Of a stretch of 64,000 bases of DNA, positions 417 through 18,347 are shown one piece after another. The stretch is from Marinomonas vulgaris (GTDB lineage Bacteria > Pseudomonadota > Gammaproteobacteria > Pseudomonadales > Marinomonadaceae). Positions within the stretch are counted from its first letter, which is position 1. The number at the start of each line of letters is the position of its first letter. Made by a program: the position numbers and the translations under genes. Location of the stretch: positions 1 through 64,000 of the forward strand of contig NZ_JAGSSV010000010.1 of NCBI RefSeq assembly GCF_018145875.1. Direction: 5' to 3'. The notes beneath the pieces are model-generated. The model was not told the origin of the DNA and searched no databases. It saw only the letters and a list, made by a program, of their open reading frames with translations.

Positions 417-3400
417 ATGAAGAGTTCAATATTTATTCTTAAGAAAACCTCAGATCTACCTGCTCAACAACTTAAGCTGGGTGAGCATAGTCACATCTTC
501 GCTGAATCTGGTTCTGTTTATTCACTTGTAGACGCTGAAACAGGTCTTTACCCAGAAGGCGTATTGTTACAGCAAGAAGGTGATGACTTGCTGCTGATGC
601 TGGACGGCGATGTCCTGTTGGTACTGAATGAATATTTTAATGAAGAAAAAGACGTGTCTTTCGACCAAGTAGGCCATTATTTTGCGGCTTCTGATAGCAG
701 CGAAGCGCAACAGCCAGCTGAACACGCGCCATCTAAGCCAATTTGGAGTGCAGAGACAGATACTCTTGTTAGTCTCGACAACCCTGATGCAGCAAGCAAA
801 GCACCAGAAACTGTGTCGGCTGATGGCGCAGTGGATACCTCGCTACCAAACGAGCTGAGTTCAGCCAATGGTGAGGTGGCGGGTATGGATCCTGCACGTC
901 CCGCTCCTGATCAAGCCCATGATAAAGGTCTAGGCGTAGAAGAAGGGGTTGTGGGTAAAGGCGGACTTGAGTCCATTGGCTGGGGATGGTATGCCGGCGC
1001 GATTGGCTTGGGGGTAATTGGCGCGGCGGCGGGCGGTGGTGGCTCTTCTTCAAGTAGTGACTCTTCAAGTGGGAGTGGTGTTGGAGCTGCTACCAACTCG
1101 ATTTCTATCTCTGCCGCAGCGGGTACGTTTTTCTCGACTGTACAAATTGATGTTTACGATACGGATGGCAATTTATTAGTTTCTGAAGATCATAATTATT
1201 CGGACGGTGATTACGTTTATACAGGCACCTATTCTGGACCTATTTTGGTTGAAATCAGCGACATAAATAATGATGCTGCTGACTATACCGATGAAACCAC
1301 AGGACAAGCAAAAAGCTTAGGCACAACATTACGCGCCATGATGAACACCGAAGGCTCGGCGGATGCCGCAGTGAGCGTCACGCCATTGACTGAACTTGCT
1401 ACACAACTTGCTGGGGTTACTGGTAAGGCGATAACAGCTGAGAATGTTGGCTTTAACGGTCAAGTTGCTAAATTATTTGGATTGGACAGCATTACAGCTA
1501 AGCCTGCCCTTACAACAGACAATCCAGATGACCCAGCTACAGCAGACAGCTACGGTAAAATATTGGCGATTTTATCTGGTTCAGATTCCGATAAAGATGT
1601 GAGTGCAGCAGAGACTATTTCAACCATTAGCGCATCTTTAAAAGAGGTTATGGAGGTTGGAAAAGATCTTCAATTTAACTCTGAAGTAGCAGTCATTCTT
1701 TCTAACGGATTAGCGGAATTTAATGATAAGAATCCTGATAATACCATGACTTTAGATGTGGAATCGGGTCTCTCTAAATTGAATGTTCCTGTTCTAGTGC
1801 TTGGGAATGATGAAGCAGAAAAAGCAGTAAAAGTGCTTAATTCAGACGATGCTGGCAGTGAGACAAAACTAAAATTGAACGGTTTGTCTGCTAGCAATGA
1901 AGTTGTTTTAACTATTAATGGAGAAGAAATTACTGGTGCAGTTGTTGAGGATGGCTACTTAACCATACCTAGTTCAATATTTACTGGCACGGGTAATGTG
2001 GACGTTGTCATCAAAACTGACGGTCAAGAGTTTTCTGTAAAGGTAAAGGTCGATACTGAGGCGCCAGTAGCTCCGACAGTGATGATTACTGAAGATGCGA
2101 ACGACGACAGCCTGATCAGCGCGGCAGAGCTTGATGGTCAAGTGAACGTGACCATTTCTCTAACCGACACAGGTGCGGTTGTAGGTGATACCTTGACGGT
2201 GAACGGCGAGAGCATCACGTTAACAGCAGCTCACATCATAGAAGGCGAAGTGTTGACGGCGGTAGATGCGCCAGCAGAAGGGGCGACGGTAACAGTCGAA
2301 GCGAGCATTACCGATGTAGCGGGTAACGAGTCAGAGACAGGAACTGACAGTGCGAAACTGGATACGACAGCGGCGGGTGCGCCAGGTGTGACCATCATAG
2401 AAGATGCGAACGACGACGGCCTGATCAGCGAGGCAGAGCTTGATGGTCAAGTGAACGTGACCCTCTCTCTAACCGACACCAATGCGGTTGAAGGCGATAT
2501 CTTGACGGTGAACGGCACAGAGATCGAACTGACAGCGGCTCACATCACAGCAGGCGAAGTGTTGACGGCGGTAGATGTGCCAGCAGAAGGCGCGACGTTA
2601 ACAGTCGAAGCGACCATTACCGATGCGGCGGGTAACGTGTCAGAGACAGGTTCTGACAGTGCGAAACTGGATACGACAGCGACGGGTGCGCCAGGCGTGA
2701 CCATCACAGACGATGGGAACAGCGACGGCCTGATCAGCCAGGCTGAGTTGGGCGCAGACAACGTTCAAGTGAGCGTAGCAGTGAATGCAGCGGATCTTGC
2801 TGAAGGCGGCTCAGTGACGTTGACTATTATTAACGGTGACGCAGAAAGCCCCGTGACGTTGACAAAAGCGGATCTGGATGAGAGTGAGACTTACAGCTAC
2901 GATGCGAGCACAGGTAAGATCACGTGGACAGAAAGCGTGGCGGAAGGTGCGAATATCGACGTCAGTGCGACGCAAATGGATGCAGCGGGTAACGTGTCAG
3001 AGACAGGAACTGACAGTGCGAAACTGGATACGACAGCGGCGGGGGCGCCAGGTGTTGACATCACAGAAGATGCGGATAACGACGGCTACATTAACAAAGA
3101 CGAGCTGTCTGGTGACGTGAACGTGACCCTCTTTCTAACCGACACCAATGCGGTTGAAGGCGATATCTTGACGGTGAACGGCACAGAGATCGAACTGACA
3201 GCGGCTCACATCACAGCAGGCGAAGTGTTGACGGCGGTAGATGCACCAGCAGAAGGCGCGACGTTAACAGTCGAAGCGACCATTACCGATGCGGCGGGTA
3301 ACGTGTCTGATAAAGGCACAGACAGTGCGAAACTGGATACGACAGCGGCGGGTGCGCCAGGCGTGACCATCAAAGACGATGCGAACGACGACGGCCTGAT

Positions 3401-6400
3401 CAGCGCGGCAGAGCTGGATGGTCAAGTGAACGTGACCCTCTCTCTAACCGACACAGGTGCGGTTGAAGGCGATACCTTGACGGTGAACGGCGAGAGCATC
3501 ACGTTAACAGCAGCTCACATCATAGAAGACGAAGTGTTGACGGCGGTAGATGCACCAGCAGAAGGCGCGACGTTAACAGTCGAAGCGACCATTACCGATG
3601 CAGCGGGTAATGTGTCAGAGAGAGGGACTGACAGTGCGATCATAGATACTTCGGTATCTGCTCCTTCATTATCTTTTTCTACTACTCCAAATGACTTGAT
3701 TAGTACTACAGTTACTGTGTCTTTAGCCGAAGATGTTGCCAGTTGGCAGTACAGTCTTGATGGTGGTGATTCTTGGCAAGATGGCCAAGGTGAGCGCTTC
3801 AGTTTAGCGCCAGAAACGACCTATAACGTAGGTGAAATACGAGTTCGTCAAAGAGACATGGCTGGTAATGTAAGTGATTCTGTTTCTAATGAAAGTGTAC
3901 TAGAAACAGATGTAGCGATCGATCCACCAAGCTTTGAGTTAGCCTCTGATACAGGCCAATCTAATGTGGATTTCATCACATCATCTACTACAGTAAATGT
4001 TAGTTCGCTCGAAGGAGCGGAGTACTGGAATTATAGCGTTGACGGTGGGGGCTCTTGGTCTGATGATCAGTCGGTCGAAACAACGAGTTTTGAGTTAGAA
4101 GATGGTGTTTATACAATAGGTACTATTCTTGTTACTCAAACGGATGCTGATGGCAATGAAAGTACTTATGCGAACAATCCCACTAAAATTACCATTGATA
4201 CCAACATTGATTCACCAGCATTTAATATAACTGATACTGGAGCATTTAACTCAGATGGTGTGACAAATGAGTTAAATGTTGATGTTGATTTGGCTATCGA
4301 TGTTGCAAGTTGGCAATTCAGTTTAAATGGAGGTCAAACTTGGCAATCTGGATCAGGGGGAAGTTTCACTTTATCCGCAAATGAGAGTTATGAAGAAGGT
4401 CAAATTCAAGTTAAGCAAACGGATATAGCAGGAAACGAGAGTCTTGTCGTAATGAATACGAACGAGATAACAACAGACATATCCTTATTATCGTCACCTG
4501 TGTTTGGGTTAAATGATGATACTGGAGAAAATAAAACTGACGGCATTTCTAAAGACGCGACGGTTTTAGTTGAAATGTCTGAGGATGTTTATATTTGGCA
4601 GTATAGCCTTGACAGCGGCTCTACTTGGTCTGGCGAGCAATCACCCGAAGTAGAGAGTTTTGAATTAAATGGAAATACAATTTATCAAGCCGGTCAGATT
4701 CAAGTTCGCCAAATAGATTTGGCTGGTAATGTTAGTACGTCATCTAATCCAAATATAATTACGATTGATACTACTATGCTTTCAGAACCGACTATTACAT
4801 TAAACGACGATACTGGGTTCAATGATTCAGACAGCATTACGCAAGATTCAACGATTAATGTTGAGTTAGCCGAAGACGCTGTGAGTTGGACGTTCAGCAC
4901 GGACGCGGGCGAGACTTGGTCTGGTTCACAAGATATATCAGTCACTAGTTTTGAGTTGGGCGAGAATAGCTATTATGGGTCAAGCGGTATCCAAGTTAAG
5001 CAATTCGATGCGGCGGGTAATGAAAGTGATCCTACGGTATTGTCCTATGTTCAAACTGATACTGAGGTAGAAACGCCTATCTTGGAGCTCACTATTACCG
5101 GTGCGAATGGAACACATACTAGTGAGTTAGAAGTGTCTGTTGGCCTTGTTAATGACGTATCTACTTGGCGATACAGTTTGGATGGTGGTTCAAATTGGCA
5201 AGAGGGCAACGGCACTAGCTTTACATTGGAAGATAGCTCTACATATGCTGCGGGCGATATTAAAGTGGAACAAACAGACATGGCCGGTAACATCAGTGCC
5301 TCTGCTGTCGTTGATCAAGCCGTGATTACCAATACGTCTCTTCCTAGTATTCCTCAATTAAACTTCTCTTACAGCAATGACTATTATAGCTATGTCACGA
5401 GTGATACAACCGTTACCGTGACCCTCGATGAAAATGTAGCAAGCTGGCGTTATAGTAAAGATGCGGGGTTTAGCTGGACAGAAGGGGTTGGAGACAGTTT
5501 TGAACTAGAGACTGGTCAAGGCGTTTATTATGGTGTGGGTGATCTTCTTGTTGAGCAGACAGACCCTGCTGGTAATGTTAGTAGTCAAGGGCTAAACGAA
5601 TCTTATATTTCTATTGATACTATTGCACCAAAACCAACTTTCGAGTTGGTAGAAGATACGGGTGCTAACGACGCTGATGGCATCACCAGTAATATTACAG
5701 TGAATTTTACCTATATAAATGAATGGTTGCCCGATAGCTGGCAATACAGTCTTGATGGCGGTGAAACTTGGTCTGAACCAAGTGCTAACAATAGTTCAAA
5801 TAGCTTTGCTTTAGAGAGTAATACATTCTACGAAGTAGGTGAGATTCAGGTCCGTCAGACAGACCTGGCAGGTAACGTAAGCTTGGCTTATTCGAATGAG
5901 ATTGAAATTACGACTGATACCCTCGCGCCAGTCGCGCCATCCTTTGCCCTTCATAATGATACGGGTGATTCTGACAGTGATTATATTACCAGTGACACGA
6001 CCATCGACGTGACTTCGATAGAAAGTGGTGCCAGCTGGCAATACTCTTTAGACGGTGGCGAGACATGGATAGAGGGTTCCGGTACCAGCTTTGAAATGGG
6101 AGCCTTACAGACCTATAAAATTGGTCAAATCCAAGTTCGTCAAATCGATGTCGCAGGGAATATCAGTGCAGTAGCCAGCAATGATGTGGTGTTTGTGTCT
6201 GACTCCTTACCAGCACCTATTGTTACCTTAGCGGAAGATAGTGGTGTATCTGACAGCGACAATGTTACTAATGTTATGACTGTAAATGTTGGCTTGGATG
6301 CGAACGCGACAAGTTGGCAATACAGCCTTGACGCTGGTGGAAATTGGCTAGATGGTGTTGGTGATAGCTTTGAGCTGGCTGAAAACACTACTTATGAAAC

Positions 6401-9400
6401 TGGTCAGATTCAGGTCAAACAGTTTGATGTTAACAGCAATGAGAGCTCAATTTTTAGTAATGATACGCAGGTTATTACAGATATTATCGCTCCATCTGAA
6501 GACAGTATTGATGTCTTAGAAGATGGCAGTGCTGAAATTGAATTGGGTGAATACTACCGAAACGTTGAGAGTTATCAAGTTGGTGACACAGGGGAAGTTA
6601 TTCAAACATGGATTTACTATCCTGATTACTCAAATCAAGCAACGCTCAATATTCAACGAGTTACAGAAGAGGGCGAGTTAAGTAATCTTCCTTACGTGAT
6701 TGAGTTGGGCTCATCGTTTGAAGGGTACTATATTAATGATGTGTTAACTGCTGGCTCAGACGACTCAGTGATCATCTCTTGGCAAGGGTTTGAATATAAC
6801 GACGAGGAAAACGAGTACGAAGATAGCGCTTTATTCTTTCAACTCTTTGACTCCAATTGGAGTCCGATTGGTGAAGTTCAACAGGCTGAGTCAAGCACTG
6901 ATTGGCATAACGATTCAGAAATATTCGCGTTAAATGGCTCTAATCAATTTGCTTTGACATGGGTTGAAGAGTCCAATGACGGCGTTAACGCATACTTACA
7001 ATTGCTCAATGCAAAGACAGGCGAACAAGGTCAACTATTAACCTTTACTGACAGTGTAACCCCTTATGTTCAAAGTATTGGTAATAGTGGTCAATTTTTA
7101 GTGGTGTGGAATGAAGTTCAGAATTTTAAAGAAGCTTCCGCTATTACTAAAACACAAACTTACAACGCCGACGGAACTCCTGCTAATGCTGCTTTCGAGC
7201 TTAATCCTGATGCAGGCGAGTACAGTGAGGACATCTATCCATTAGGCTCAGAGGGTGCTTTTGTTGCTTTGATGGTGAATGAAACAGAAGGAACCTTAAG
7301 CCTACAAACTGTCAGTGCAACTGGTCAGCTTGCTGACCGTGTTGAGCTTGGTCGTTATTCAAATGATGGCGACTTTGAAATTGATATATCTACCGTTAAT
7401 ACTGACAATGATTTTGCAATCACTTGGGCTGGCCTTAACGATACAGATGAAACAACGCTGTATACGCAATTGTTTCATGCTGATGGCACAGCGGACGGTG
7501 AGGCTCTTTCATTACCTATGTTGTTTGACGGCGAAGAAGAATACGGTATTGATTTTTCTTTAGTGAGTGGTACATCCGATCAAGGCTATTTTATCAATGC
7601 AGAGCAGTATTTTTACGGTGAGCAAGAAGAAGATACATCTGAAATAGCGGTGTATTTTATAAAGGATAACGAAGTCACAGTTATTGCGCAAAGCGAAGAG
7701 AATGATAATTGGCATTCTTTTGGTACGGAACTTTTAAACGACGAAGGTGATGTACTTGTTTATAAAGAAGGTCAAGACCTAGAATCATACGATAGTGATT
7801 CTTGGTTCCAAATATACAACGCAGATGGAACGGCGAAAACAGCTCAAACTTTCTTTGCTGACGGTATTTATAACCTTGATTTTACTGTGGTCAACGACGA
7901 AGGCGACTTCCTCGTATCTTGGGTTTCATATGGCGGCTATCAAGACGAAAATTACCAATGGATCTCTCAAACTACCAATCATATTCAACTTTATGCCGCT
8001 GATGGCAGCTTGATTACGCCTACAGAAATTAACCCTGGAGAAGAGTTATCTGTCTACACGGCAGAAGCTGGTGCTGTTTATATTGTTAATGCTGACGAAG
8101 AGGTTGTCAGTATGACGGATATTATTGAACTAGAAAGCGATCTTTGGAACAGCGTCGAGACAGAAGGAGATGTAAATGTTTCTGTGAGTTCGTCGGATTT
8201 AGGAGAAGGAAGCTACTATCTCTATGTTAGTGACTTGGCCGGCAATCTTACTCAACACGCCAAACTAGTCAATATTGTTCCATTTGATAGTGAATTCTCT
8301 GAACCAGATGTAGATTTAAATGCTGATACGGGTTGGAGTGATGAAGACGACATTACCAACGATACTCTGGTTAATGTGAAATTAACGGATGGAGCGATTC
8401 GTTGGGAGTACTCACTTGATCATGGTGTGACTTGGACTAAAGGTGAAAATGACTCTTTTGATCTGACTGATAATACTGAGTTTAATCTTAACGACATCCA
8501 GATTCGCCAATACGATGAAGAGGATAACGTCAGCGAAGTTGCAAGCAACTCCGATGGCTACCTTATTACCGATAATCAGATTAGCGTTCCCGAGATCGAA
8601 ATTGTAGGTACAACAGTTCTAGTGACGCTAGACGATGACTGGCACGTATGGGATTACTCGCTTGATGGCGGTGATACTTGGCTTACAAGTAACACAGACA
8701 GTTTTCAGTTAGAGCCAGATACGACATACGAAGCAGGTAGCATTATAGTTTGGCAAGAGGATCGTGCGGGTAACGAAGGCGAACTTGAATACAATCAAAC
8801 TTACACAACACCTGCACCATACCAAGCACCGACGTTTAAATTATTTGAAGACACGGGTATATCGGAGAGCGACGGCATTACCAACGAAGGCTCGTTAGAT
8901 GTGACTTTAGCGGATGATGCTGTGGCTTTTGAATATTCACTGGATGGCGGTGAAAACTGGCAGTTTGGCTCAGGTGCCTATGTGCTACTTGGCGATACTG
9001 AGTTCGCTACCAAAGATTTTGTAGCTTATCAATATGATGCTGATGGTAACGAATCTGAATTAACCCTTGATTATGACGACGAGTCTGTTGACTTTGCGAT
9101 AGGTTTTGATGTTCTGGAAGGCACGGTTCGTTGGAAATACTCTATTGATGATGGGGAAACATTTACAGAGAAAAATTGGGCTGATGTTGACGGCCACTTT
9201 ATTGATCTAGATTATGGTGAAGAATATGCCATTGGTGATATTCAAGTTCGTCAAATTAATGCTGAGGGTGAAATAAGCTTAGTCGCTAAAAACGAACTAG
9301 TTATTATTGTCGATGATAATGCGCCCTATGACCTAACCGTTTCACCAAGTTATACGAAATTGGAGGGTACCGATACATCACTAGGCAGTTTTGATCTGCA

Positions 9401-11480
9401 AAGCACGAAGTCTGAAACACTTGGCGATAGTGGTTTATTTAATTTATCTTGGGTTGAGCAAAATTACATTGAAGGTGAATCGACAACAGAAGCGTTTGTC
9501 CAAGTGATCGATTCAGACGGTAATGCTGTTTCTGAGAAAATTGCCATTGCACCAACTACAGAAGATGTACGAATTCCCGCAATTGAAATGATCGCGCTAG
9601 GTAACACGGGATCATTTGTTGTTACATGGTGGGAGCAGAACGATGATTACACTGAGAAAAACTATTTTTATCAGGTTTATGACGCGGATGGTGCTGTAAC
9701 AAGTCCTGTTGGAATGGAAGGGGAGTACTACGAAGAGTTTATTTCATCTGTTAATGATAATGGCAACTTTGTGTTGTCTTACTATTCTGACATAGGTGAT
9801 GAACAGCATACTAAATCAGCATTATTCGATGTAAATGGCGACAAAATCACAGACCTTTTAGATATTGAATATAGCTATTCCTTAGCAGAGACACTTTCAG
9901 TTGGTAGCGAAGGTAACTTTGTAGTGCTTCAAAATAATACATTGGCATTGTTTGATGAAGTAGGAGTGGCGATCAATTCGACAACCTTATCGTCTTGGTC
10001 TCCTGAGTTATTAACATTAGGAACAAGTGGTGGGTATGGTGCCTTGTATACTGGCGATGTTTATTATGAAAGTTTTGGTGAGTATGTTAATAGCATTGTA
10101 ATAGACCGCTTTGATGAAAGTGGGACATCATTAGAAGAGGTTGCTCTCGTTACGTTAGGTGACGGTGGGTATGCCGACATTCTTAGTGCAACTGCATCAG
10201 ATAATGGTGGTTTCGCTGTATCTTGGAGTAATAATTCGCAAACCTACCTTCAAGCGTTTGATGCTGATGGTGCTTCATTCAGCGAAGCAGTTGTAATTGT
10301 TCCAGCAAGTGATCTCGGTACGGTAAATGCTTGGGGCGTGTCTATTGAGAGCATTGAATATAATTCATCGTACATAGTTACCGGTGAATATAATGTGCAG
10401 AATAATGAAACTAATTATTATAGTGGCACGGTTTACTTCGCTCGTTTAATGGATTCAGATGGCGCCATGACTACCATTTTCGAAAGTGATGCCTATAGCA
10501 ATTATAAGGTTGCTGCTGTAGGTGACAATGGAGCATTTGTTGTCACGTGGGAGGAATCCGATGAATACGGCCAAGATCTTATGGTACAAGTTCACAATGC
10601 GGATGGAACAGTCAGTGATGTGGTCACATTAGAAGCGAGTCAATATTCCTATGATCAAAATGGATTCATTATTGAGCTGGATAATGGTGAATTTGCTGTT
10701 AGCTGGACTGGAGATGTTTATTACAGTCAAGATAATAAGACTTCGAACGTATACATCCAAAAATTCAACGCAGATGGCACTATTGTTGATAAAACCATTA
10801 TTGATGATACTGGAGAAGTGTCGGTTGAGAGTGCCGACGATGGTATTGCTTATTTGGTAAGCAGTGACTTATTCAATGACACAGACTCTGCTAGTTTCTT
10901 TGATGACTATGGGCAGTGGGAAGATGTTTATTACGATTCTTTGATGGATAAAACTGATAATTCTTCACAATGGAACAGTGTAGAAGTAACGGGTGGGGAA
11001 GAAGCCTTTATTTCGGCAGAAGGTTTAGAAACGGGCAGTTACTATGTTCTGATGGCAGATACAGCGGGTAATGTTTACCTCAGTGATGTCGGTATTACCG
11101 TGAATCAAGCGGTAACCTTTGATCTTGTTAATGGCGAGTCAACGGATCTTGATAGTCAGACATTCGACGCAGACGAAACCTACAACATCTATATTAATAT
11201 TGGTGATGGTTCTACTTTGACTCTAAACAATGGTGAGCAATGGAGTGGTGCAGCGAATTTAGGTGAAGACGATACTATTATTTTGATAACTAATAGTTCT
11301 GTTACAGGCTTCTCTGTTGATAATGAAGACATTACTTGGGCCAGTGGAAGCGGTGATGCAATCCTGAGTAACAGTGGAGAATTTACCATTGAAGACAGCC
11401 CTGCTGTAGACCTTTGGGATGGCAATGTTACAGCGATGTCTAATGTGATGGTTCAAGTCACTGAACCATCCGACGTATAA
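417..11480 (+). CDS. Giant Bap/Lap-type repetitive adhesin, predicted type I secretion substrate
   Basis: About 3,690 residues. The start chosen is the ATG at 417, because GGAG lies 8 nt upstream and the protein then begins with a Bap/LapF-like prefix domain (residues ~1-85); an in-frame ATG at 324 has no such signal. Order of parts: prefix; acidic linker; hydrophobic Gly/Ser stretch (~188-223), typical of this family; a TDG/YTDETTG-type domain with a VTPLTELA motif (~225-350); five Ig-like repeats of 103 or 119 residues, each with an EF-hand-like DxNxDGxIxxxE loop (546-1076); ten repeats with a W-x-Y-S-x-D-x-G-x-x-W core (~1077-2028); a propeller-like block with FVVTW...DADG repeats (~2028-2621); four more W-YS-D-G repeats; a second propeller-like block (~2967-3560); and a unique acidic C-terminus. 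No RTX nonapeptides were seen. The TolC, ABC and HlyD genes downstream imply type I export. Likely role: surface attachment or biofilm formation. Confidence 0.85.
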   Translation: MKSSIFILKKTSDLPAQQLKLGEHSHIFAESGSVYSLVDAETGLYPEGVLLQQEGDDLLLMLDGDVLLVLNEYFNEEKDVSFDQVGHYFAASDSSEAQQPAEHAPSKPIWSAETDTLVSLDNPDAASKAPETVSADGAVDTSLPNELSSANGEVAGMDPARPAPDQAHDKGLGVEEGVVGKGGLESIGWGWYAGAIGLGVIGAAAGGGGSSSSSDSSSGSGVGAATNSISISAAAGTFFSTVQIDVYDTDGNLLVSEDHNYSDGDYVYTGTYSGPILVEISDINNDAADYTDETTGQAKSLGTTLRAMMNTEGSADAAVSVTPLTELATQLAGVTGKAITAENVGFNGQVAKLFGLDSITAKPALTTDNPDDPATADSYGKILAILSGSDSDKDVSAAETISTISASLKEVMEVGKDLQFNSEVAVILSNGLAEFNDKNPDNTMTLDVESGLSKLNVPVLVLGNDEAEKAVKVLNSDDAGSETKLKLNGLSASNEVVLTINGEEITGAVVEDGYLTIPSSIFTGTGNVDVVIKTDGQEFSVKVKVDTEAPVAPTVMITEDANDDSLISAAELDGQVNVTISLTDTGAVVGDTLTVNGESITLTAAHIIEGEVLTAVDAPAEGATVTVEASITDVAGNESETGTDSAKLDTTAAGAPGVTIIEDANDDGLISEAELDGQVNVTLSLTDTNAVEGDILTVNGTEIELTAAHITAGEVLTAVDVPAEGATLTVEATITDAAGNVSETGSDSAKLDTTATGAPGVTITDDGNSDGLISQAELGADNVQVSVAVNAADLAEGGSVTLTIINGDAESPVTLTKADLDESETYSYDASTGKITWTESVAEGANIDVSATQMDAAGNVSETGTDSAKLDTTAAGAPGVDITEDADNDGYINKDELSGDVNVTLFLTDTNAVEGDILTVNGTEIELTAAHITAGEVLTAVDAPAEGATLTVEATITDAAGNVSDKGTDSAKLDTTAAGAPGVTIKDDANDDGLISAAELDGQVNVTLSLTDTGAVEGDTLTVNGESITLTAAHIIEDEVLTAVDAPAEGATLTVEATITDAAGNVSERGTDSAIIDTSVSAPSLSFSTTPNDLISTTVTVSLAEDVASWQYSLDGGDSWQDGQGERFSLAPETTYNVGEIRVRQRDMAGNVSDSVSNESVLETDVAIDPPSFELASDTGQSNVDFITSSTTVNVSSLEGAEYWNYSVDGGGSWSDDQSVETTSFELEDGVYTIGTILVTQTDADGNESTYANNPTKITIDTNIDSPAFNITDTGAFNSDGVTNELNVDVDLAIDVASWQFSLNGGQTWQSGSGGSFTLSANESYEEGQIQVKQTDIAGNESLVVMNTNEITTDISLLSSPVFGLNDDTGENKTDGISKDATVLVEMSEDVYIWQYSLDSGSTWSGEQSPEVESFELNGNTIYQAGQIQVRQIDLAGNVSTSSNPNIITIDTTMLSEPTITLNDDTGFNDSDSITQDSTINVELAEDAVSWTFSTDAGETWSGSQDISVTSFELGENSYYGSSGIQVKQFDAAGNESDPTVLSYVQTDTEVETPILELTITGANGTHTSELEVSVGLVNDVSTWRYSLDGGSNWQEGNGTSFTLEDSSTYAAGDIKVEQTDMAGNISASAVVDQAVITNTSLPSIPQLNFSYSNDYYSYVTSDTTVTVTLDENVASWRYSKDAGFSWTEGVGDSFELETGQGVYYGVGDLLVEQTDPAGNVSSQGLNESYISIDTIAPKPTFELVEDTGANDADGITSNITVNFTYINEWLPDSWQYSLDGGETWSEPSANNSSNSFALESNTFYEVGEIQVRQTDLAGNVSLAYSNEIEITTDTLAPVAPSFALHNDTGDSDSDYITSDTTIDVTSIESGASWQYSLDGGETWIEGSGTSFEMGALQTYKIGQIQVRQIDVAGNISAVASNDVVFVSDSLPAPIVTLAEDSGVSDSDNVTNVMTVNVGLDANATSWQYSLDAGGNWLDGVGDSFELAENTTYETGQIQVKQFDVNSNESSIFSNDTQVITDIIAPSEDSIDVLEDGSAEIELGEYYRNVESYQVGDTGEVIQTWIYYPDYSNQATLNIQRVTEEGELSNLPYVIELGSSFEGYYINDVLTAGSDDSVIISWQGFEYNDEENEYEDSALFFQLFDSNWSPIGEVQQAESSTDWHNDSEIFALNGSNQFALTWVEESNDGVNAYLQLLNAKTGEQGQLLTFTDSVTPYVQSIGNSGQFLVVWNEVQNFKEASAITKTQTYNADGTPANAAFELNPDAGEYSEDIYPLGSEGAFVALMVNETEGTLSLQTVSATGQLADRVELGRYSNDGDFEIDISTVNTDNDFAITWAGLNDTDETTLYTQLFHADGTADGEALSLPMLFDGEEEYGIDFSLVSGTSDQGYFINAEQYFYGEQEEDTSEIAVYFIKDNEVTVIAQSEENDNWHSFGTELLNDEGDVLVYKEGQDLESYDSDSWFQIYNADGTAKTAQTFFADGIYNLDFTVVNDEGDFLVSWVSYGGYQDENYQWISQTTNHIQLYAADGSLITPTEINPGEELSVYTAEAGAVYIVNADEEVVSMTDIIELESDLWNSVETEGDVNVSVSSSDLGEGSYYLYVSDLAGNLTQHAKLVNIVPFDSEFSEPDVDLNADTGWSDEDDITNDTLVNVKLTDGAIRWEYSLDHGVTWTKGENDSFDLTDNTEFNLNDIQIRQYDEEDNVSEVASNSDGYLITDNQISVPEIEIVGTTVLVTLDDDWHVWDYSLDGGDTWLTSNTDSFQLEPDTTYEAGSIIVWQEDRAGNEGELEYNQTYTTPAPYQAPTFKLFEDTGISESDGITNEGSLDVTLADDAVAFEYSLDGGENWQFGSGAYVLLGDTEFATKDFVAYQYDADGNESELTLDYDDESVDFAIGFDVLEGTVRWKYSIDDGETFTEKNWADVDGHFIDLDYGEEYAIGDIQVRQINAEGEISLVAKNELVIIVDDNAPYDLTVSPSYTKLEGTDTSLGSFDLQSTKSETLGDSGLFNLSWVEQNYIEGESTTEAFVQVIDSDGNAVSEKIAIAPTTEDVRIPAIEMIALGNTGSFVVTWWEQNDDYTEKNYFYQVYDADGAVTSPVGMEGEYYEEFISSVNDNGNFVLSYYSDIGDEQHTKSALFDVNGDKITDLLDIEYSYSLAETLSVGSEGNFVVLQNNTLALFDEVGVAINSTTLSSWSPELLTLGTSGGYGALYTGDVYYESFGEYVNSIVIDRFDESGTSLEEVALVTLGDGGYADILSATASDNGGFAVSWSNNSQTYLQAFDADGASFSEAVVIVPASDLGTVNAWGVSIESIEYNSSYIVTGEYNVQNNETNYYSGTVYFARLMDSDGAMTTIFESDAYSNYKVAAVGDNGAFVVTWEESDEYGQDLMVQVHNADGTVSDVVTLEASQYSYDQNGFIIELDNGEFAVSWTGDVYYSQDNKTSNVYIQKFNADGTIVDKTIIDDTGEVSVESADDGIAYLVSSDLFNDTDSASFFDDYGQWEDVYYDSLMDKTDNSSQWNSVEVTGGEEAFISAEGLETGSYYVLMADTAGNVYLSDVGITVNQAVTFDLVNGESTDLDSQTFDADETYNIYINIGDGSTLTLNNGEQWSGAANLGEDDTIILITNSSVTGFSVDNEDITWASGSGDAILSNSGEFTIEDSPAVDLWDGNVTAMSNVMVQVTEPSDV
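2052..3644 (+). repeat. Five tandem Ig-like coding repeats (309, 309, 357, 309, 309 bp)
   Basis: Units begin at 2052, 2361, 2670, 3027 and 3336, each opening with a D-T-[ETA]-A core. Units 2 and 4 share a subtype (TNAVEGDILTVNG) and are almost identical over about 170 bp. Units 1 and 5 share another subtype (GDTLTVNGESITL). Unit 3 is longer and divergent. The block is visibly more GC-rich than the coding sequence that follows it. Long identical stretches make it a likely site of recombination and of assembly error. Confidence 0.9.
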
Positions 11481-11512
11481 CATTACATGTAAATAAAGTA
11501 AAAAAACAAAGG

Positions 11513-11557
11513 AGAACCGAGCTTGGCGCCTTGTGCTGGGTAAGGTTCTCTTTTTTT
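11513..11557 (+). terminator. Terminator-like hairpin between adhesin and secretion genes
   Basis: GAGAACC (11513-11519) pairs with GGTTCTC (11544-11550) and is followed directly by seven T residues. It begins 32 nt after the adhesin stop codon, and the next gene starts 10 nt after the T-tract. It could end most adhesin transcripts or act as an attenuator that sets a low ratio of exporter to substrate. Confidence 0.6.
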
Positions 11558-11566
11558 GGTGTATTT

Positions 11567-13645
11567 ATGGACGCAACATTACATTTGCTTCGAGAGATGG
11601 CAGAGCAAAGAGAGTATCAAGCGTTGCAGCAGGCTTGTGCGGATTTTTTGTTACTGGACAATCACCCCGAGGTTTTGATTTTGCAGATGTTGGCTCTGGC
11701 AAACATGGGCAAAAAAGACAGCGCGGCGTCTTTATTGGCGGCATTTGAACAGACGACAGACCTTGACGGTCTGTCGTCGTTTGCGCGTTTGGATATGGGC
11801 TCTGTATATTCGGCGTTGGCCAGGTTCGAAGAGGCAGAAAACCTCTTCGATGGGTTAATCGAACAAGCTTTTTGCCTAGGTGTTGTATTAGCAAAAAAAG
11901 CTTATTGCCGCTTGATGCAAGGAGACGAAGCAGGTGCAGAGGCGCTTTTTGTTAAGGCGTTAGAGCATGAAAACTGCCCGCTCGAAGTGGTGATTAATTT
12001 ATGCGAACTGCACTTAGCAAGATCCTCTCAGCTACCTTCGATAGACAGGGTGCAGGCGTATCTAGCTCATTCAGAACAAGAAGAGCATACACTTTTAGAT
12101 ACTGGCTCCGAGTACCAACTGGGGCTACGCGAACAGCTCGATTCCATTCGTTTAGAGTGCTGGGTAAAGCAGGGGCAAAAAGCCGAGGCGGAATCTTGGT
12201 TGCGCGATATGACGGCTGACGAGCCAAGGTACGCACAGAACATAGCCAGCTACGTGGATTATCTGGTTGATAAATGTGACCTCTTTAATAGTTGCGATCA
12301 TATTGCAGCGGAAGCTATTTTGCGGTTTGGCTTAAAAACCTACCCTAATAATCCATTGCTTCTTCATCGCCTAGATGAAGTTTGCTCAATTTTTGCCGAA
12401 AACGTGGCCGCACAACCGGCAATAAAAGCGTCTTTGGGTGCCAGAGTCCGCGCTAGGTTTCATCCTACTTTTTTGTCGTCTCGACTATTGGGAGCGGATC
12501 ACCATACAGTAGAAACCCCTTCGTACGCTTTAGGGCCGGACAGGTTGACGTTTTCGCCGGTGTTTTTATTGGGTTTGCCTTGCTCTGGCGTCTCTCTTTT
12601 AGCAGACGCATTGTCTGAGCAAATGTTGTCGGTGGGAGAGAAAGTGGTGCCTTGTGCGACGTCGATCATTGGTGTCGCAATTGAAGGCATTGATATGGCG
12701 CAGCGCACATTGGGCACAAGGCGAGCCTACCCTGACAACCTCGATGTACTTACCCCAGAGCAGATACAAGGATTGGCTGAGAGCATTCAGTTGGCCTATC
12801 AAAACAAATCGACCAGTGATCTAGTAATAGACACTAACTTGGATAATATTCACCATCTGGGTTTTATTAAATGGTTGTTTCCCAAAGCAAAATGTATTTT
12901 GGTGAACCAGGATGTTCGAGAGTGGCTAGCTTCATCCAGTCTAGATCAATGGCTGGTTCAACAAGGGCTTACCAGTACGGAAGAAAAAGCCGACTGTTTG
13001 GGGGAGCAATTTGCAGACTTCAAAGCCTTATCCGCTCACTGGCAGCGTTATTTTTCTGCAGACATGCTTACCGTGTCGATCGAGCAATGGCAACAATCTC
13101 CTACTGAAACCTTGGCCGAGATAGCGGATTTTATTGGCATGAAAAGTATTGGAATGGAAGGTATTGAGATGGAGCAAAACAGTGTTCCATCTATGTCCGC
13201 TTATGAAGAAACGCTTGACGATACTCTGCTCGAAGAGAAAGGCCTTGAAGAGAAAAAGTCCAAGAGTAGAGCGAGCGCCTTGCCAAAAAGATCCATGCTG
13301 CAGTTGGCGTTTAATAAAGCCCTGCTAAAATACAAAACAGCGGCTCCTGTGACCGATATGGTGACCTTGCCCAAAGCGGGTCTCTTAACCGACGCGTTTC
13401 GCTTGTATACTGATCAGCAACCTCGTGACGCCGAGTACCAATGTAAGGTGATATTGCACCATTTACCCTCGTTCGCTCCTGCACATTATTTGCTTGGTGA
13501 GCTGTACTTGGCCAATGGCCTGATTCAATTGGGTATTGACTCGATTGAGCGTGCTATTAGTTTATCGCCTTGGAAGGCGCCACGTTGGCAGCGCAATTTG
13601 CCTCAAGCTTATCAATTTGTAACAGATCAAAAGGAAGCTCAGTGA
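11567..13645 (+). CDS. TPR protein with sulfotransferase-like domain
   Basis: 692 residues. The N-terminal ~270 residues are helical and TPR-like (ALANMGKKDSA..., ARFEEAENLF). The middle resembles the PAPS-dependent sulfotransferase fold: a P-loop-like GLPCSGVSLL at ~336-345 where the family has GxPRSGT[ST], and a later region (WLFPKAKCILVNQDVREWLASS, ~433-455) in the place of the usual LFPxAxxIxxxRDPRD. A TPR-like segment with AHYLLGELYLANG returns near the C-terminus. The arginine of the PAPS loop is Cys and both arginines before the later Asp are changed, so activity is uncertain. The ATG at 11567 is chosen; an upstream in-frame TTG at 11531 lies inside the terminator hairpin. The gene sits between the adhesin and its exporter and overlaps the next gene by 4 nt, so a role in modifying or handling the adhesin is plausible but inferred. 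Confidence 0.65.
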   Translation: MDATLHLLREMAEQREYQALQQACADFLLLDNHPEVLILQMLALANMGKKDSAASLLAAFEQTTDLDGLSSFARLDMGSVYSALARFEEAENLFDGLIEQAFCLGVVLAKKAYCRLMQGDEAGAEALFVKALEHENCPLEVVINLCELHLARSSQLPSIDRVQAYLAHSEQEEHTLLDTGSEYQLGLREQLDSIRLECWVKQGQKAEAESWLRDMTADEPRYAQNIASYVDYLVDKCDLFNSCDHIAAEAILRFGLKTYPNNPLLLHRLDEVCSIFAENVAAQPAIKASLGARVRARFHPTFLSSRLLGADHHTVETPSYALGPDRLTFSPVFLLGLPCSGVSLLADALSEQMLSVGEKVVPCATSIIGVAIEGIDMAQRTLGTRRAYPDNLDVLTPEQIQGLAESIQLAYQNKSTSDLVIDTNLDNIHHLGFIKWLFPKAKCILVNQDVREWLASSSLDQWLVQQGLTSTEEKADCLGEQFADFKALSAHWQRYFSADMLTVSIEQWQQSPTETLAEIADFIGMKSIGMEGIEMEQNSVPSMSAYEETLDDTLLEEKGLEEKKSKSRASALPKRSMLQLAFNKALLKYKTAAPVTDMVTLPKAGLLTDAFRLYTDQQPRDAEYQCKVILHHLPSFAPAHYLLGELYLANGLIQLGIDSIERAISLSPWKAPRWQRNLPQAYQFVTDQKEAQ

Positions 13646-14916
13646 GACTCTCTTATTTATTGTGTGTGTGCTGTCTAGGTGGGTTGTTTTTACCTGCTAC
13701 TGTCAGTCAAGCGATTGGACAATCCTCTGAACAGGTAGACTTGCCAACGGCGTTGATGTCGATGATGCAGCGACACCCTGCGTTGATGGGCAAGCAAGCG
13801 CAAATTGAATCCAAGGATTCCCTATTAAAAAGCGCCGAAGCGGAGCGTTTGCCCAGTTTAGATGTGTCCTATGGTGAAGACAGAGACGGCAACCAAGAGG
13901 GGGCTTTTATTGTCAAGCAGCCCTTGTGGGCGTTTGGCCGTATTGATACGGGCATCGACTACGCAACCATTGATTTGTCGGCGGAATCCATTGATAAACT
14001 GCGCTTAACCAGAGAGCTATTGGAAGACACCGCGTTGGCGTATGCGAAGGTGGTTGGGGTGCAAGAGCAGTTGCAGATAGTCGAGCAAAACATTGCTCAA
14101 CATCAAGCTTTTCTTGAGCAAATTCAGCGGCGTCGAGAGGGGCGTTTAGCCTCAGAAACTGACACCAAATTGGCGGCTTCCCGCTTAACTCAAGCGCAAG
14201 TACAAGACATTCAAATGCGTGGTGATTTACGTGACGCCTTGATGGCGCTGCAAACCCTCGCACAGCGGCCGATTGATGTCGTGTTACCAATCACGCCAGA
14301 CATGTTCCAAAACTTACCGGACGATACCACCATAGAGCAGCAAGTACTCAGACAAAGTGCAGAGGTACAGTATAAGGAGCAGTTGGTCAGCCTTGCCATT
14401 CAAGATGTCTATCGTAAACGCTCGAGTTTTATGCCGACGCTCTATTTAAAGTTTTCCCATGAATACAGTGACAGCGCGACCTATCCCGATGACTCTCGCG
14501 TTAGCTTGGTAATGGAAGGTGGCCTAGAAGGTCTGGGGATGATCACCCGATATGAAGAACAATCGGCTAATTCTCAGTTAAACGCTGCGGAACGGGATGT
14601 AGAAGTGACGCAGTTTGAGTTGACGAATCGGTTAAATACCTTGCTATTGAATCGTAAAATACAGCAGTCGTTAATCGATATTCATCAGTCATCTATTGAT
14701 CAATTGAATTCGACTTTGGCGTCTTATCAGCGACAATACAAAAGTGGTCGCAAAGAATGGCTGGATGTTTTGAACATTCAGCGAGAAATAACCGAACAGA
14801 AAATATCCCAAGCCCAAGCTGAAAACCGCTTATTGGTCAACTTGTTAAGCTTAGCGGCGTTAATGGGTGGGCTAGATGAACTCACGAACAGAAAAGGATA
14901 CCCGGGTGAGCAGTAA
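13642..14916 (+). CDS. TolC-family outer-membrane protein of a type I secretion system
   Basis: 424 residues from a GTG start at 13642. AAGGAA lies 5-6 nt upstream and the start overlaps the preceding stop (GTGA), indicating translational coupling. The first ~27 residues form a signal peptide (hydrophobic core LLCVCCLGGLFLPA). The rest is rich in long amphipathic helices with the two-fold repeat typical of outer-membrane efflux proteins: LPTALMSMMQRHPAL near the start, a QEQLQIVEQNIAQH helix, and a matching helical pair near the end (SYQRQYKSGRKEWLDVLN). It should form the outer-membrane channel-tunnel for the ABC and HlyD-type proteins encoded next to it, equivalent to LapE in the Lap system. 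Confidence 0.85.
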   Translation: MRLSYLLCVCCLGGLFLPATVSQAIGQSSEQVDLPTALMSMMQRHPALMGKQAQIESKDSLLKSAEAERLPSLDVSYGEDRDGNQEGAFIVKQPLWAFGRIDTGIDYATIDLSAESIDKLRLTRELLEDTALAYAKVVGVQEQLQIVEQNIAQHQAFLEQIQRRREGRLASETDTKLAASRLTQAQVQDIQMRGDLRDALMALQTLAQRPIDVVLPITPDMFQNLPDDTTIEQQVLRQSAEVQYKEQLVSLAIQDVYRKRSSFMPTLYLKFSHEYSDSATYPDDSRVSLVMEGGLEGLGMITRYEEQSANSQLNAAERDVEVTQFELTNRLNTLLLNRKIQQSLIDIHQSSIDQLNSTLASYQRQYKSGRKEWLDVLNIQREITEQKISQAQAENRLLVNLLSLAALMGGLDELTNRKGYPGEQ

Positions 14917-17104
14917 ACACACCAATGAAGGTGACATCGCACTAAGCAGTGCTGTCGTACATCGATTATTCAATGAATTAAGGTTAGGAATTTCTAAGGG
15001 CGACATAGACAACGCCTTGGAAGCGGACGAGCTGCAAACACTGCCAGCGTTAGACCAATTAAGAGCCCTATTAAACCGACTTAATATAAAAGGCATTAAG
15101 GGTGGGGCTGTCGCTTGGCATCGATTCGACCGCAGACAATTGCCTGCCTTGGTATGTTTTGATGAACAATGGTGGTTGGCCAGTAACGATGGTGACGATG
15201 TGTTATTGCAAAGCGATGAAGGGCAATCGGATCGTGTGGTGTCCAGCAGCGAGTTATCTGGGGTGTCGGTACTTTGGTTAAAGCGCGTTAGCAGCGGGCG
15301 GGATAAAGATGCCGAGACGCCTACGGCTAGAAAACTGATTATGAGCGCCTTGTTTCAAGACAAAGCCTGGTTAGGTAATGTCATGGTGGCCACGGTTATT
15401 GTGAATATACTGGCCGTGGCGACTTCGCTGTTTGCCTTACAAGTTTACGATCGTGTAGTGCCGACGCTGGCTTATTCCACTTTGACGACCTTGGTCGTGG
15501 GTATGGCGGGTATTGTTCTATTGGATTGGTTGCTCAAACGCACTCGCGCCAAGGTGTTAGACAGTTTGGCGGCGGATGTGGACATGCGATTATCCAAGCA
15601 GGTCTTTCAGCATTTGTTGCATTTACGTTTAGACAATCAGCCGAACAGCTTGGGCACCTTGAATGCGCAGGTAAACGGACTTGAATCAGTACGACAGTTT
15701 TTTACCTCCGGCATCGTGTTTGGCCTGATTGATTTGCCGTTTGCCATTATGTTTATCGCCTTTATTGGGGTGATTGGTGGTGTGGTTGGCTGGGTGTATG
15801 CCTTATTGTTTCCTATTGCCATTATCCTTGGGTTAATTACTCAGTTTCGTCTGAAGAGCCTGATTAAAAAGCAAATTATGCGGTCGAATGAGCGCCAAGG
15901 TTTATTGATTGATGTGATTCGTGGCTCTGAATCTATTCGAGCTAACAACGCTGGATGGCGTTTTTCGAAAGAGTGGGAACAGATCACCCAATCGCTGGCG
16001 TCTTATCAGGTACGACAAAAAACCATTAGCCAGTTAAGCACTGCCACTACTGGCAGCTTATCGACCATTGCTTATGTGTCGGCTGTGGTGGTTGGGGTGT
16101 TTCAGGTGGAAGCGGGCAACCTCACCATGGGGGGCATGATCGCTTGCAGTATCTTGGGTGGTCGGGTGATTAACCCTATTTCTCAAGGCGTACAGTATTT
16201 GGTGCAGTGGCAATCTGTGTCGCAATCATTAAATATGGTGGATCAGTTATTGGCGCTGGAGTTAGAGCGCCAGCCCGATCAGCATTTGTTGGTGGGTGAG
16301 AAAACCATCGAGTCTATTGCGGTCGACAATGTGCGCTTTGCCTATACGGATTCGCCAGTCAAACACCTTGATATTGAGTCGCTTACTTTTCATGCCGGTG
16401 ACCGCGTCCTTTTGGTGGGGCCGATTGGTTGCGGTAAATCCACTTTGCTTAAAGTGCTGGCTGGCTTGTATCGGCCTGGTGAGGGTCGAGTCAAACTGGG
16501 TTCCTTGGATTTATGGGAAATTGATCCGCAATTTGTGACGTCTCACATCAGTTATTTACCGCAAAATGTGCATTTGTTTAAAGGCACACTTAAAAGCAAC
16601 CTGACTTTATCCGGTACGGTAAGTGATACCGAGATGATGGACGTAGTGAAAGAACTTGGTGTGGACAAAATCGCTCAAGGCAACCCAAAGGGCATGGAAT
16701 TAGAGGTATCTGAAGGAGGCGAAGGCTTGTCGGGTGGGCAGCGTCAGCTCGTTGCTTTGTCGCGAACCATTACCGCGAAACCGACTATTTGGTTATTAGA
16801 TGAACCAACGGCGTCATTAGATGGCGACAGTGAAAAGCGGGTTTGGGAAGTGCTAAAACAACACATTAAACCGACCGATATTTTGGTGGTATCGACTCAT
16901 CGTCCTATGTTGGCGGCGCATATTGCGAATCGGGTATTAGTCATGCAGCAAGGAAAAGTAGTACGCGATGGCGCTCCAGCGGCAATTTTGCCGGGTTTGA
17001 TGAGTAATAAAGCCACCAAGCCAGCAACATCGACTGCACCCGCTGCCACAAAGGAAGCATCTTCCCCTTCGAGCCGTACTAAGCGAGGTTTCAATGCCAT
17101 CTAA
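14906..17104 (+). CDS. Type I secretion ABC transporter with cysteine-less C39-like domain
   Basis: 732 residues from a GTG at 14906, preferred because AAGGA lies 7 nt upstream; an in-frame ATG at 14876 would overlap the TolC gene further. The N-terminal ~130 residues look like the C39-like domain of RTX/Lap exporters but lack the catalytic cysteine, so the domain should bind substrate rather than cleave a double-glycine leader. A six-helix membrane domain follows (from ~residue 155). The nucleotide-binding domain has Walker A GPIGCGKST (~505), signature LSGGQRQ (~608) and Walker B IWLLDEPTASLD (~627-638). It resembles LapB. It overlaps the TolC-like gene upstream and the HlyD-type gene downstream by 11 nt each, so the three should be made together as one export machine. 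Confidence 0.88.
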   Translation: MSSKHTNEGDIALSSAVVHRLFNELRLGISKGDIDNALEADELQTLPALDQLRALLNRLNIKGIKGGAVAWHRFDRRQLPALVCFDEQWWLASNDGDDVLLQSDEGQSDRVVSSSELSGVSVLWLKRVSSGRDKDAETPTARKLIMSALFQDKAWLGNVMVATVIVNILAVATSLFALQVYDRVVPTLAYSTLTTLVVGMAGIVLLDWLLKRTRAKVLDSLAADVDMRLSKQVFQHLLHLRLDNQPNSLGTLNAQVNGLESVRQFFTSGIVFGLIDLPFAIMFIAFIGVIGGVVGWVYALLFPIAIILGLITQFRLKSLIKKQIMRSNERQGLLIDVIRGSESIRANNAGWRFSKEWEQITQSLASYQVRQKTISQLSTATTGSLSTIAYVSAVVVGVFQVEAGNLTMGGMIACSILGGRVINPISQGVQYLVQWQSVSQSLNMVDQLLALELERQPDQHLLVGEKTIESIAVDNVRFAYTDSPVKHLDIESLTFHAGDRVLLVGPIGCGKSTLLKVLAGLYRPGEGRVKLGSLDLWEIDPQFVTSHISYLPQNVHLFKGTLKSNLTLSGTVSDTEMMDVVKELGVDKIAQGNPKGMELEVSEGGEGLSGGQRQLVALSRTITAKPTIWLLDEPTASLDGDSEKRVWEVLKQHIKPTDILVVSTHRPMLAAHIANRVLVMQQGKVVRDGAPAAILPGLMSNKATKPATSTAPAATKEASSPSSRTKRGFNAI

Positions 17105-18347
17105 TCCGACAACAGCCGCAGCGGTTTCGTCTATGCAAACAGCGGCTCAGCAAAAAGAGGATCTAAAAGACGCTCATCAAGCCCATGAAGCTTTTGGTTA
17201 CCACAAAAAAAAGCGCGCGCTGGTGGTATGGCCCTTGTTATTCGCGTTGATTGGTTTTGTGGTATGGGCTGATCGCTTTTATATCGACGAAGTGGCTCAG
17301 GCACAAGGTGAGGTGATTGCCAGTAGCCGAGTACAGTTAATCCAATCGGTAGACGGCGGTGTGATTGCTGAGCTTAATGTGCGCGAAGGCGATCGAGTGG
17401 AAGCCGGTGAGCTGTTGGGGCAGCTGGATCAAACTCGACTAAAAGCCTCGGTTGGTGAGACGGAGTCTCGAGTGTTTGCGTTAAAAGCCAAAGCCATACG
17501 CTTGAGAGCAGAAATTTTAGGTGAGGCGAGCTTGTCGTTTCCCGACGACTTGCTGCAGCGTTATCCTGATACAGCTCAAGTCGAAAAAGCCTTGTTTGAT
17601 CAACGCCGTACCGGCATCAAAGAAGAACTGAGAACCTTGAATGTGTCAGTGTCTTTGGCCAAAGAAGAACTGGATATCGTGAAAAATCTTCACGAAACCG
17701 GTGATGTTAGCAGTACCGAAATGCTCAAAGCACGGGAAGCACTGAACGCCGCCGAAGCTAAGTTAATTAACCGAAAAAACCAGTTTTTAGAAGAAGCCAA
17801 CGCAGAGCGCGCTAAGGTGGAAGATGAACTAGGCCAAAGTGAACAAATCCTTGCTAGAAAACAGCAAGAACTGCAAGACAGTGTGTTCATTGCCAAGGTG
17901 CCAGGCATTATAAAAAATGTCAGTGTGACCACGGTGGGCGGGGTGCTTCGCGCTGGTGAAGAAATCATGCAGATTATTCCCATTGATGATGAGCTGATTG
18001 TCGAGGCGAAAATACGACCTGAAGATATCTCCCGAGTGAAGCAAGGGCTGACCGCCAATATCCGCTTAGACCCTTTTGATTACACCATTTACGGTGGTGT
18101 GGAGGCAAAGGTGGTGTATGTCAGTGCTGATACTCTAAAAGAAGAATCCTCCCAAGGAGAGGAAGTCTATTACCGCGTGCACGTGGTGCCTTTGCAACTG
18201 CCTATCAAGACGACCATTGGACGTTCGGTTGAGATGTTGCCTGGTATGACAGCTCAAGTATCCATTAAAACCGATGAACGCACGGTGATGGATTACTTGC
18301 TTAAGCCGTTACGTAAAACCCTAAGCGAAGCCTTTGGTGAAAAATAA
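17094..18347 (+). CDS. HlyD/LapC-family periplasmic adaptor of the type I secretion system
   Basis: 417 residues. A cytoplasmic N-terminal tail is followed by one membrane helix (~42-60, VVWPLLFALIGFVVWA). Next come a lipoyl-like half-motif (SVDGGVIAELNVREGDRVEAGELLGQLD), a long coiled-coil hairpin (~130-265) and the second lipoyl/beta-barrel part (VPGIIKNVSVTTVGGVLRAGEEIMQIIP). The C-terminus has the MLPGMTAQVSIKT motif common to the family. It should bridge the inner-membrane ABC exporter and the TolC-like channel. Its ATG lies inside the end of the ABC gene (11-nt overlap). Its stop codon lies in the loop of a strong hairpin that closes the operon. Confidence 0.9.
   Translation: MPSNPTTAAAVSSMQTAAQQKEDLKDAHQAHEAFGYHKKKRALVVWPLLFALIGFVVWADRFYIDEVAQAQGEVIASSRVQLIQSVDGGVIAELNVREGDRVEAGELLGQLDQTRLKASVGETESRVFALKAKAIRLRAEILGEASLSFPDDLLQRYPDTAQVEKALFDQRRTGIKEELRTLNVSVSLAKEELDIVKNLHETGDVSSTEMLKAREALNAAEAKLINRKNQFLEEANAERAKVEDELGQSEQILARKQQELQDSVFIAKVPGIIKNVSVTTVGGVLRAGEEIMQIIPIDDELIVEAKIRPEDISRVKQGLTANIRLDPFDYTIYGGVEAKVVYVSADTLKEESSQGEEVYYRVHVVPLQLPIKTTIGRSVEMLPGMTAQVSIKTDERTVMDYLLKPLRKTLSEAFGEK

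Follow-up and report, generated by a model that had tools for sequence, protein, structure and literature searches.

A probable pseudo-sulfotransferase with flanking TPR regions in a giant adhesin and type I exporter locus of Marinomonas vulgaris

The first 64,000 nucleotides of contig NZ_JAGSSV010000010.1 of Marinomonas vulgaris (assembly GCF_018145875.1; genome G000, 3.45 Mb in 56 contigs), here called the window, carry on the forward strand five genes that encode, in order, a giant adhesin, a TPR protein with a Sulfotransfer_3 domain, and TolC-type, ABC and HlyD proteins, the last three together making up a full type I secretion set. The TPR protein, the genome's sole match to Sulfotransfer_3, is best read from its sequence as a pseudo-sulfotransferase. 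That it serves adhesin export as a non-catalytic reader, chaperone or adaptor of a C-terminal adhesin domain (CTD), as an enzymatically dead offshoot of a family of TPR-sulfotransferases that partner this domain, is a reading for which we see an even chance. The initial annotation of this DNA had proposed that the adhesin is covalently modified before secretion, by analogy with the Rax system of Xanthomonas. The one-directional layout it described, with the last four genes overlapping and the adhesin starting at ATG 417, is borne out by the gene coordinates, and relatives repeat the order of adhesin, sulfotransferase-like gene and exporter. The sulfotransferase fold also stands, while an active enzyme and its proposed target sites are unlikely in the window.

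The comparison with sulfotransferase families that the initial annotation had suggested confirms this fold, as residues 331-525 match PF13469 with 49.8 bits, and tyrosylprotein sulfotransferases (TPSTs) are the best matches among sulfotransferases. Against PDB sequences, the intact domain of relatives finds TPST1/2 best, at an E value of about 1e-10 (3e-11 with the domain alone), and a search with only the window domain gave no TPST at E 10. The window protein belongs to clade A, with eight sequences (the window, P0007, P0008, P0009, L023, L024, L025 and L028), and the intact relatives form group B, whose 54 alignment rows hold 53 distinct sequences because one protein appears twice, as P0073 and L093. 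A total of 244 group-B proteins passed the threshold, and among the 120 of these on which motifs were scored, GMPRSGT[TS]L was found in 119, DK[LM]PHN in 119, GAGEL in 117 and the pattern of the 3'-phosphate-binding (3'-PB) motif in 115; one listed protein, P0074, is off the motif pattern. Psychromonas ingrahamii and Marinomonas primoryensis are among the species with a listed group-B enzyme. The Arg of the 5'-phosphosulfate-binding (5'-PSB) motif at position 339 is present in 54/54 group-B rows and in 0/8 clade-A sequences, where C, F or S is found instead, and both the next Thr of this motif (T342) and the WQVRQP segment are likewise present in 54/54 group-B rows and 0/8 clade-A sequences. 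In the window protein C339, T423, N447 and Q448 replace the Arg, Lys, Arg and Arg of its relatives; the positively charged 5'-PSB residue, the DK-motif Lys (now Thr) and a 3'-PB Arg (now Gln) are all absent. Excerpts of two papers name the essential elements of sulfotransferases, a positive 5'-PSB residue, a base and the Ser of the 3'-PB motif (PMC6637879), and the catalytic residues of TPST2, R78, E99, K158 and S285 (PMC5562738). The columns of R78 and K158 hold C339 and T423 in the window protein, with the TPST2 numbering placed by counting on a domain alignment that ends before S285. As judged from these residues, the window enzyme is very probably dead, and the source annotation of the clade-A proteins P0007 and P0009 as 'sulfotransferase' probably misstates their activity.

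In a tree of 47 of the 82 rows, with group B reduced to 19 and long branches flagged, clade A is one group with support 100/100 on a branch of 2.23, generic TPR-sulfotransferases form another group, and group B, not shown to be a clade, lies between them. Within clade A the sulfotransferase domains are on average 48.6% identical in pairs, against 81.7% within group B, whereas identities of the two TPR regions are alike (44.5 versus 47.5 and 55.0 versus 59.5); only clade A has lost the extra constraint on the sulfotransferase domain. The ratio of nonsynonymous to synonymous substitution rates (dN/dS), from three pairwise comparisons among the relatives L023, L024 and L025 and not the window, spans 0.155-0.201 over the TPR-sulfotransferase gene and 0.169-0.232 over its dead domain, with dS nearly saturated in two of these pairs and, in the C-terminal part of the gene, saturated in one. 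These values are higher than those of the TolC, ABC and HlyD genes (0.024-0.125), and all are well below 1; the TPR-sulfotransferase gene is under purifying selection in the clade-A relatives tested. A loosened domain, retained TPR regions and persisting selection are the pattern of a pseudoenzyme with a retained scaffold role.

The last 110-160 residues are homologous between clade-A and group-B adhesins (alignments A3 and A5) and constitute the CTD. For the window CTD, no match beyond chance level was found in Pfam, NCBIfam or PDB sequences, and its structure model gave no convincing match among solved structures; of 15 CTDs compared with NCBIfam, one matches NF045619, the BapA/Bap/LapF C-terminal model, with E 0.015. 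Most carriers have the CTD at or near the C-terminus, and matches at residues 145-299, 725-894 (weak) and 1566-1742 of a single frame (L029:1-5238) indicate that it can sit internally as well as terminally. When 19 group-B CTDs are compared with seven from clade A, positions are seen to change along with enzyme state: the His after the SS pair (16/19 versus 0/7), the Arg of GxFxR (16/19 versus 0/7), the Arg of SSxHSxR (18/19 versus 1/7) and the Gln of the SQGL tail (18/19 versus 0/7). At the core Tyr, Trp, Leu and Asp positions the two sets mostly agree. One Tyr conserved in 26/26 CTDs (Y27 of the model) was considered as the sulfated residue and is an unlikely acceptor, given that CTDs paired with a dead enzyme retain it and that a beta strand of the model begins with it.

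Co-occurrence with giant adhesins, which the initial annotation had put forward as a check, is found for those that carry the CTD. Within the genus, the CTD is present in 10/48 genomes and the TPR-sulfotransferase in the same 10; in the order sample, the numbers are 7/341 and the same seven; and in the class sample, the CTD occurs in 3/369 (G000, G428 and G564), of which G428 and G564 have full-length sulfotransferase matches. This gives 16 genomes with both, counts that are not independent events given the kinship of the genomes and the overlap between samples. The CTD threshold was 1e-4, and those for the sulfotransferase differed by search (1e-3, 1e-25, 1e-76 and 1e-30). At most two (1e-25 search) or three (1e-30 search) candidates per genome were scored in the order, and in the class sample the window-type protein of clade A was not a query, with G000 falling below the sulfotransferase threshold of 1e-76. 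No CTD was found in the remaining genomes of the three samples, including 102 order genomes with only generic TPR-sulfotransferases (E <= 1e-25) and the class genomes G713 and G674, whose matches of 35-36% identity over part of the length were classed as generic. Among 72,556 plasmid records, one has a CTD and one a full-length sulfotransferase, and it is the same record, from Comamonas endophytica. The CTD profile (A3, 15 rows, the window CTD among them) was built from CTDs beside a sulfotransferase gene, drawn from 13 of the 16 genomes that have both, so that the weight rests on the absence of the CTD elsewhere and on finds outside the profile sources, namely G178 (six matches), G368 (three), G027 (also adjacent to the sulfotransferase gene) and the Comamonas plasmid. 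Extra CTD copies in several genomes likewise lie outside the profile construction. For generic TPR-sulfotransferases no exporter neighbour was detected by blastp with the exporter queries used, across 26 loci (L066-L091) with flanks of about 1.5 kb or less, in 25 of which an open reading frame (ORF) matched the sulfotransferase query. We regard a partnership of the TPR-sulfotransferase with the CTD as likely.

In the mechanism that we favor, the TPR arms of intact relatives would grip the CTD-tagged adhesin while it is still unfolded in the cytoplasm, and the domain, dependent on 3'-phosphoadenosine 5'-phosphosulfate (PAPS), would probably sulfate the held adhesin before export. In the window clade, the sulfotransferase step has probably been lost and the protein retained, most likely as a substrate-specific adaptor or chaperone without catalysis, which would bind the CTD or its tail and pass the adhesin to the exporter. 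From the sequence patterns, we consider the case for a chaperone or adaptor role of the window protein to be evenly balanced. Several points weigh against this reading. The 3'-PB Ser (S456) is kept in 8/8 clade-A sequences and 54/54 group-B rows, and clade A keeps K423 in 6/8 and R448 in 7/8, which makes weak PAP(S) binding possible in those members. A Glu of the window protein is aligned with the catalytic base in alignment A4 (where Glu occupies the base column in two of the eight clade-A rows, the window and L028) and falls inside a six-residue insertion in A1, making the base of the window protein uncertain instead of lost. The rapid change of the dead domain agrees with relaxed use no less than with co-evolution. 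In addition, the presence of the CTD in 13 of the 16 genomes is given by construction of the profile there, the single family sulfotransferase gene in each of G178 and G368 lies away from the exporter, and the CTD could be merely the exporter's secretion signal.

The last of these points can be developed into a separate explanation, in which the TPR-sulfotransferase travels with a class of exporter, does not act on the CTD and, in relatives, sulfates something else. Type I secretion signals lie at the C-terminus, as does the CTD, or nearly so, in most of its carriers; exporter, CTD and sulfotransferase travel together; and the CTD profile itself derives from such loci. However, the pairing of CTD and sulfotransferase holds in G006 and G046, where the locus has a different, shorter exporter ABC protein (25% identical). 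It also holds in G178 and G368, where a HlyD gene adjoins the CTD gene and the TPR-sulfotransferase gene is elsewhere, and we consider this explanation rather unlikely. In both of these genomes, the TPR-sulfotransferase gene is followed by an amidohydrolase gene, not TolC (L094:14579-16087 and L098:8258-9739).

Alternatively, the gene could be a decaying relic that survives through its position in the operon. The long branch and low identity of clade A are in keeping with decay, as is the broken copy in G027. Against it stand the purifying selection on the estimable parts in three loci, full-length open frames in eight distinct clade-A sequences, and the distribution of close homologues of the window ABC gene in the genus, which occur in 8/48 genomes and always with a gene of the TPR-sulfotransferase family (broken in G027), leaving a relic improbable. 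The clade-A locus of G027 (L026 and L027) has sulfotransferase pieces on two contigs, a shortened HlyD gene and adhesin pieces in opposite directions, breakage that could partly be an assembly effect.

It is quite improbable, in our view, that the dead domain is a ligand-binding or regulatory module, such as a nucleotide or carbohydrate sensor, and not a chaperone. In its favor, R380, R386, D422 and N427 are kept in 8/8 clade-A rows, but group B conserves the same residues, whose role may be only structural, and the operon itself showed no signalling gene. Least probable is that the window protein is an active TPST sulfating the adhesin, as its fold, its TPST matches, its retained S456, a Glu near the base position and a layout like that of Rax (PMC4216712 and PMC6637879, in part) are outweighed by the loss of the 5'-PSB Arg, the DK-motif Lys, the 3'-PB Arg and WQVRQP, by the naming of lost positions as essential or catalytic in excerpts of PMC6637879 and PMC5562738, and by the placement of the candidate YSxD sites in a structural hairpin.

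These sites had been described in the initial annotation as 14 adhesin repeats with Y-S-x-D, the setting that TPSTs favor. The number is nearly right, as the window adhesin has 14 copies of a hairpin [WF]x[YF]Sx[DN]xG, 12 with Tyr and two with Phe, and 18 YSxD in total. Acidic-context Tyr (at least three D/E within five residues) number 42 versus 37.2 +- 5.4 in shuffled sequences and are not enriched. Taken as sulfation sites of the window, the YSxD motifs were set aside, given an Asp-box-like hairpin with Phe in 2/14 copies and no such enrichment; with the enzyme probably dead as well, YSxD sulfation in the window is unlikely. In the 3,015-residue adhesin of G428 (L109:1379-10426), where the enzyme is intact, there are only 22 Tyr, 18 of them in hairpins of the EYSxDxGxxW type, and an acidic residue precedes 17 of the 22 compared with 2.1 expected. 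For this reason hairpin Tyr may be sulfated at that locus. All five YSxD of L031 lie within the hairpin, and of nine ORFs analysed from intact loci, several of them partial, seven are free of YSxD. In L030, the sulfotransferase frame (7666-10593) and the preceding adhesin (2894-6841) start alike (MADN...), as if the start region had been duplicated.

Among the intact relatives, a plasmid of Comamonas endophytica encodes on one strand a 4,321-residue adhesin with a CTD, a TPR-sulfotransferase with intact motifs, TolC, ABC and HlyD proteins and cysC, an adenylyl-sulfate (APS) kinase, the type of enzyme that makes PAPS, with a gap of 73 bases after the adhesin followed by gaps of 5 and 3, an overlap and a gap of 1. 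G046 and G006 likewise have an APS kinase after HlyD (PF01583, E 2e-67 and 2.5e-64), and tblastn of the window and 19 loci found the kinase only in G046, G006 and Comamonas. It thus stands directly after HlyD in three of the eight exporter-linked group-B loci (G043, G046, G006, G185, G287, G428, G564 and Comamonas; the G564 contig ends after HlyD, that of L110 116 bases after it) and in neither of two other group-B loci. No APS kinase was found within the stretches covered in the seven clade-A genomes, which past HlyD reach 46 kb in the window and 1.4 to 7 kb in the other clade-A loci, with Ns in that of L023. The intact motifs outside clade A and the kinase in 3/8 loci make sulfation-coupled adhesin export plausible in these relatives, as judged from gene content. 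A fuller scheme of modification-coupled secretion, in which the TPR-sulfotransferase would read the CTD and sulfate the adhesin with PAPS, supplied in some loci by the APS kinase of the operon, before type I export, and in which the window branch would keep the reader without the chemistry, is one we advance tentatively and rate somewhat below even.

The features of the window locus are collected in Table 1. For the ABC protein, Peptidase_C39 was not found in Pfam at E <= 0.001, whereas ABC_membrane, ABC_tran and SMC_N were. The gap between the adhesin and the TPR gene (11481-11566) folds strongly, with a z score of -4.83 versus shuffled sequences, and hairpins occur in the same gap in L022, L023, L024, L025, L027 and L028, with z from -4.01 to -5.78 in the six gaps tested of seven. 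The hairpin sequence varies between loci; its foot carries a site resembling AAGGAG, and an ATG comes immediately after, which makes a Shine-Dalgarno/hairpin/start arrangement or a stability element possible. At residues 203-206 of the adhesin, AAAG fits the LapG-type site pattern [TAP]AA[GT]. A second type I exporter in the genome (C22:108835-114046, L099; ABC about 30% identical) lies near a LapG-family gene (PF06035) on contig C22. Since an ABC comparable to that of this second exporter (E <= 1e-60) is found in 48/48 genus genomes, the window exporter is an extra one. A LuxR-type regulator-like gene lies divergently upstream of the adhesin in L022 (18738-19859, with a GerE match), L023 (399-1514) and L025 (332-1444), the likeness of the latter two to the first having been judged by their ends. 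Downstream of the window operon, positions 19526-23446 encode a CHASE/PAS hybrid histidine kinase with an Hpt domain.

Table 1. Features of the adhesin and exporter locus in the window.
Feature	Positions	Strand	Remarks
Giant adhesin, 3,687 aa	417..11480	+	ATG 417; N-terminal module, Big_13 Ig-like repeats, C-terminal CTD; Pfam Big_13, BNR
AAAG, adhesin residues 203-206	1023..1034	+	second AAAG at residue 233
Span of 14 Asp-box-like hairpins	3744..9155	+	first positions residues 1110 to 2906; Pfam BNR/Asp-box match
CTD of adhesin, 125 residues	11103..11480	+	alignments A3, A5; all-beta model, pLDDT 92.9
Intercistronic hairpin, main stem-loop	11511..11551	+	between adhesin stop and next ATG; AAAGGAG at foot
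TPR/putative pseudo-sulfotransferase protein, 692 aa	11567..13645	+	TPR on both sides of Sulfotransfer_3 domain
Sulfotransfer_3 domain PF13469, residues 331-525	12557..13141	+	Pfam cut-off 27 bits
C-terminal helical/TPR region of the same protein, residues 568-692	13268..13642	+	
TolC-family outer membrane protein (OEP)	13642..14916	+	open frame from 13570; GTG 13642 overlaps preceding stop
Type I secretion ABC transporter	14876..17104	+	best NCBIfam LssB family TIGR03375, 604 bits, below cut-off 693
HlyD-family membrane fusion protein	17094..18347	+	TIGR01843, 315 bits, cut-off 209

The nearest precedent for sulfation joined to type I export is the Rax system of Xanthomonas oryzae, in which, according to excerpts of the cited papers, RaxST sulfates RaxX, which is then exported by RaxA/RaxB (PMC6637879; PMC4216712). 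In both systems a gene of the sulfotransferase type adjoins those of a type I exporter. In these excerpts, however, the RaxX precursor has 60 residues and carries a double-glycine leader, and no TPR arms are mentioned for RaxST, whereas here the cargo is a 3,687-residue adhesin, TPR arms are present, the window domain lacks some essential residues, and the leader peptidase domain (Peptidase_C39) is missing from the Pfam matches of the ABC protein. The differences from Rax are the size of the cargo, the CTD, the TPR arms, the APS kinase in some loci and the enzyme-dead branch. TPST1 and TPST2 differ in that the matched chains have no TPR part, and clade A differs from them in lacking the 5'-PSB Arg in 8/8 sequences; TPSTs are Golgi enzymes. 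In HlyC-type systems, a modifying gene lies beside toxin and exporter genes and modification takes place in the cytoplasm before export, although there the modification is acylation by a small enzyme of a different fold. The giant repetitive adhesin with its N-terminal module, the possible LapG-type site and the LssB-like ABC protein recall Lap/Bap systems, but the CTD is no catalogued Lap/Bap C-terminus, with the single NF045619 match as noted above, and no RTX family is among the Pfam matches of the window adhesin. In the open-access literature, searched by title and abstract and with subscription papers mostly outside its scope, nothing was found that joins a TPR-sulfotransferase with a type I adhesin locus.

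To our knowledge, bacterial protein sulfation has been shown for few systems, with RaxX as the standard case. The combination of an intact TPR-sulfotransferase, an adhesin domain, an exporter and, in some cases, an APS kinase would offer mass spectrometry a concrete set of substrates. As a branch with a dead enzyme, clade A is a natural control, as well as a warning on the annotation 'sulfotransferase', and if the reading proposed here is true, this branch would let sulfation and export handling be told apart in nature.

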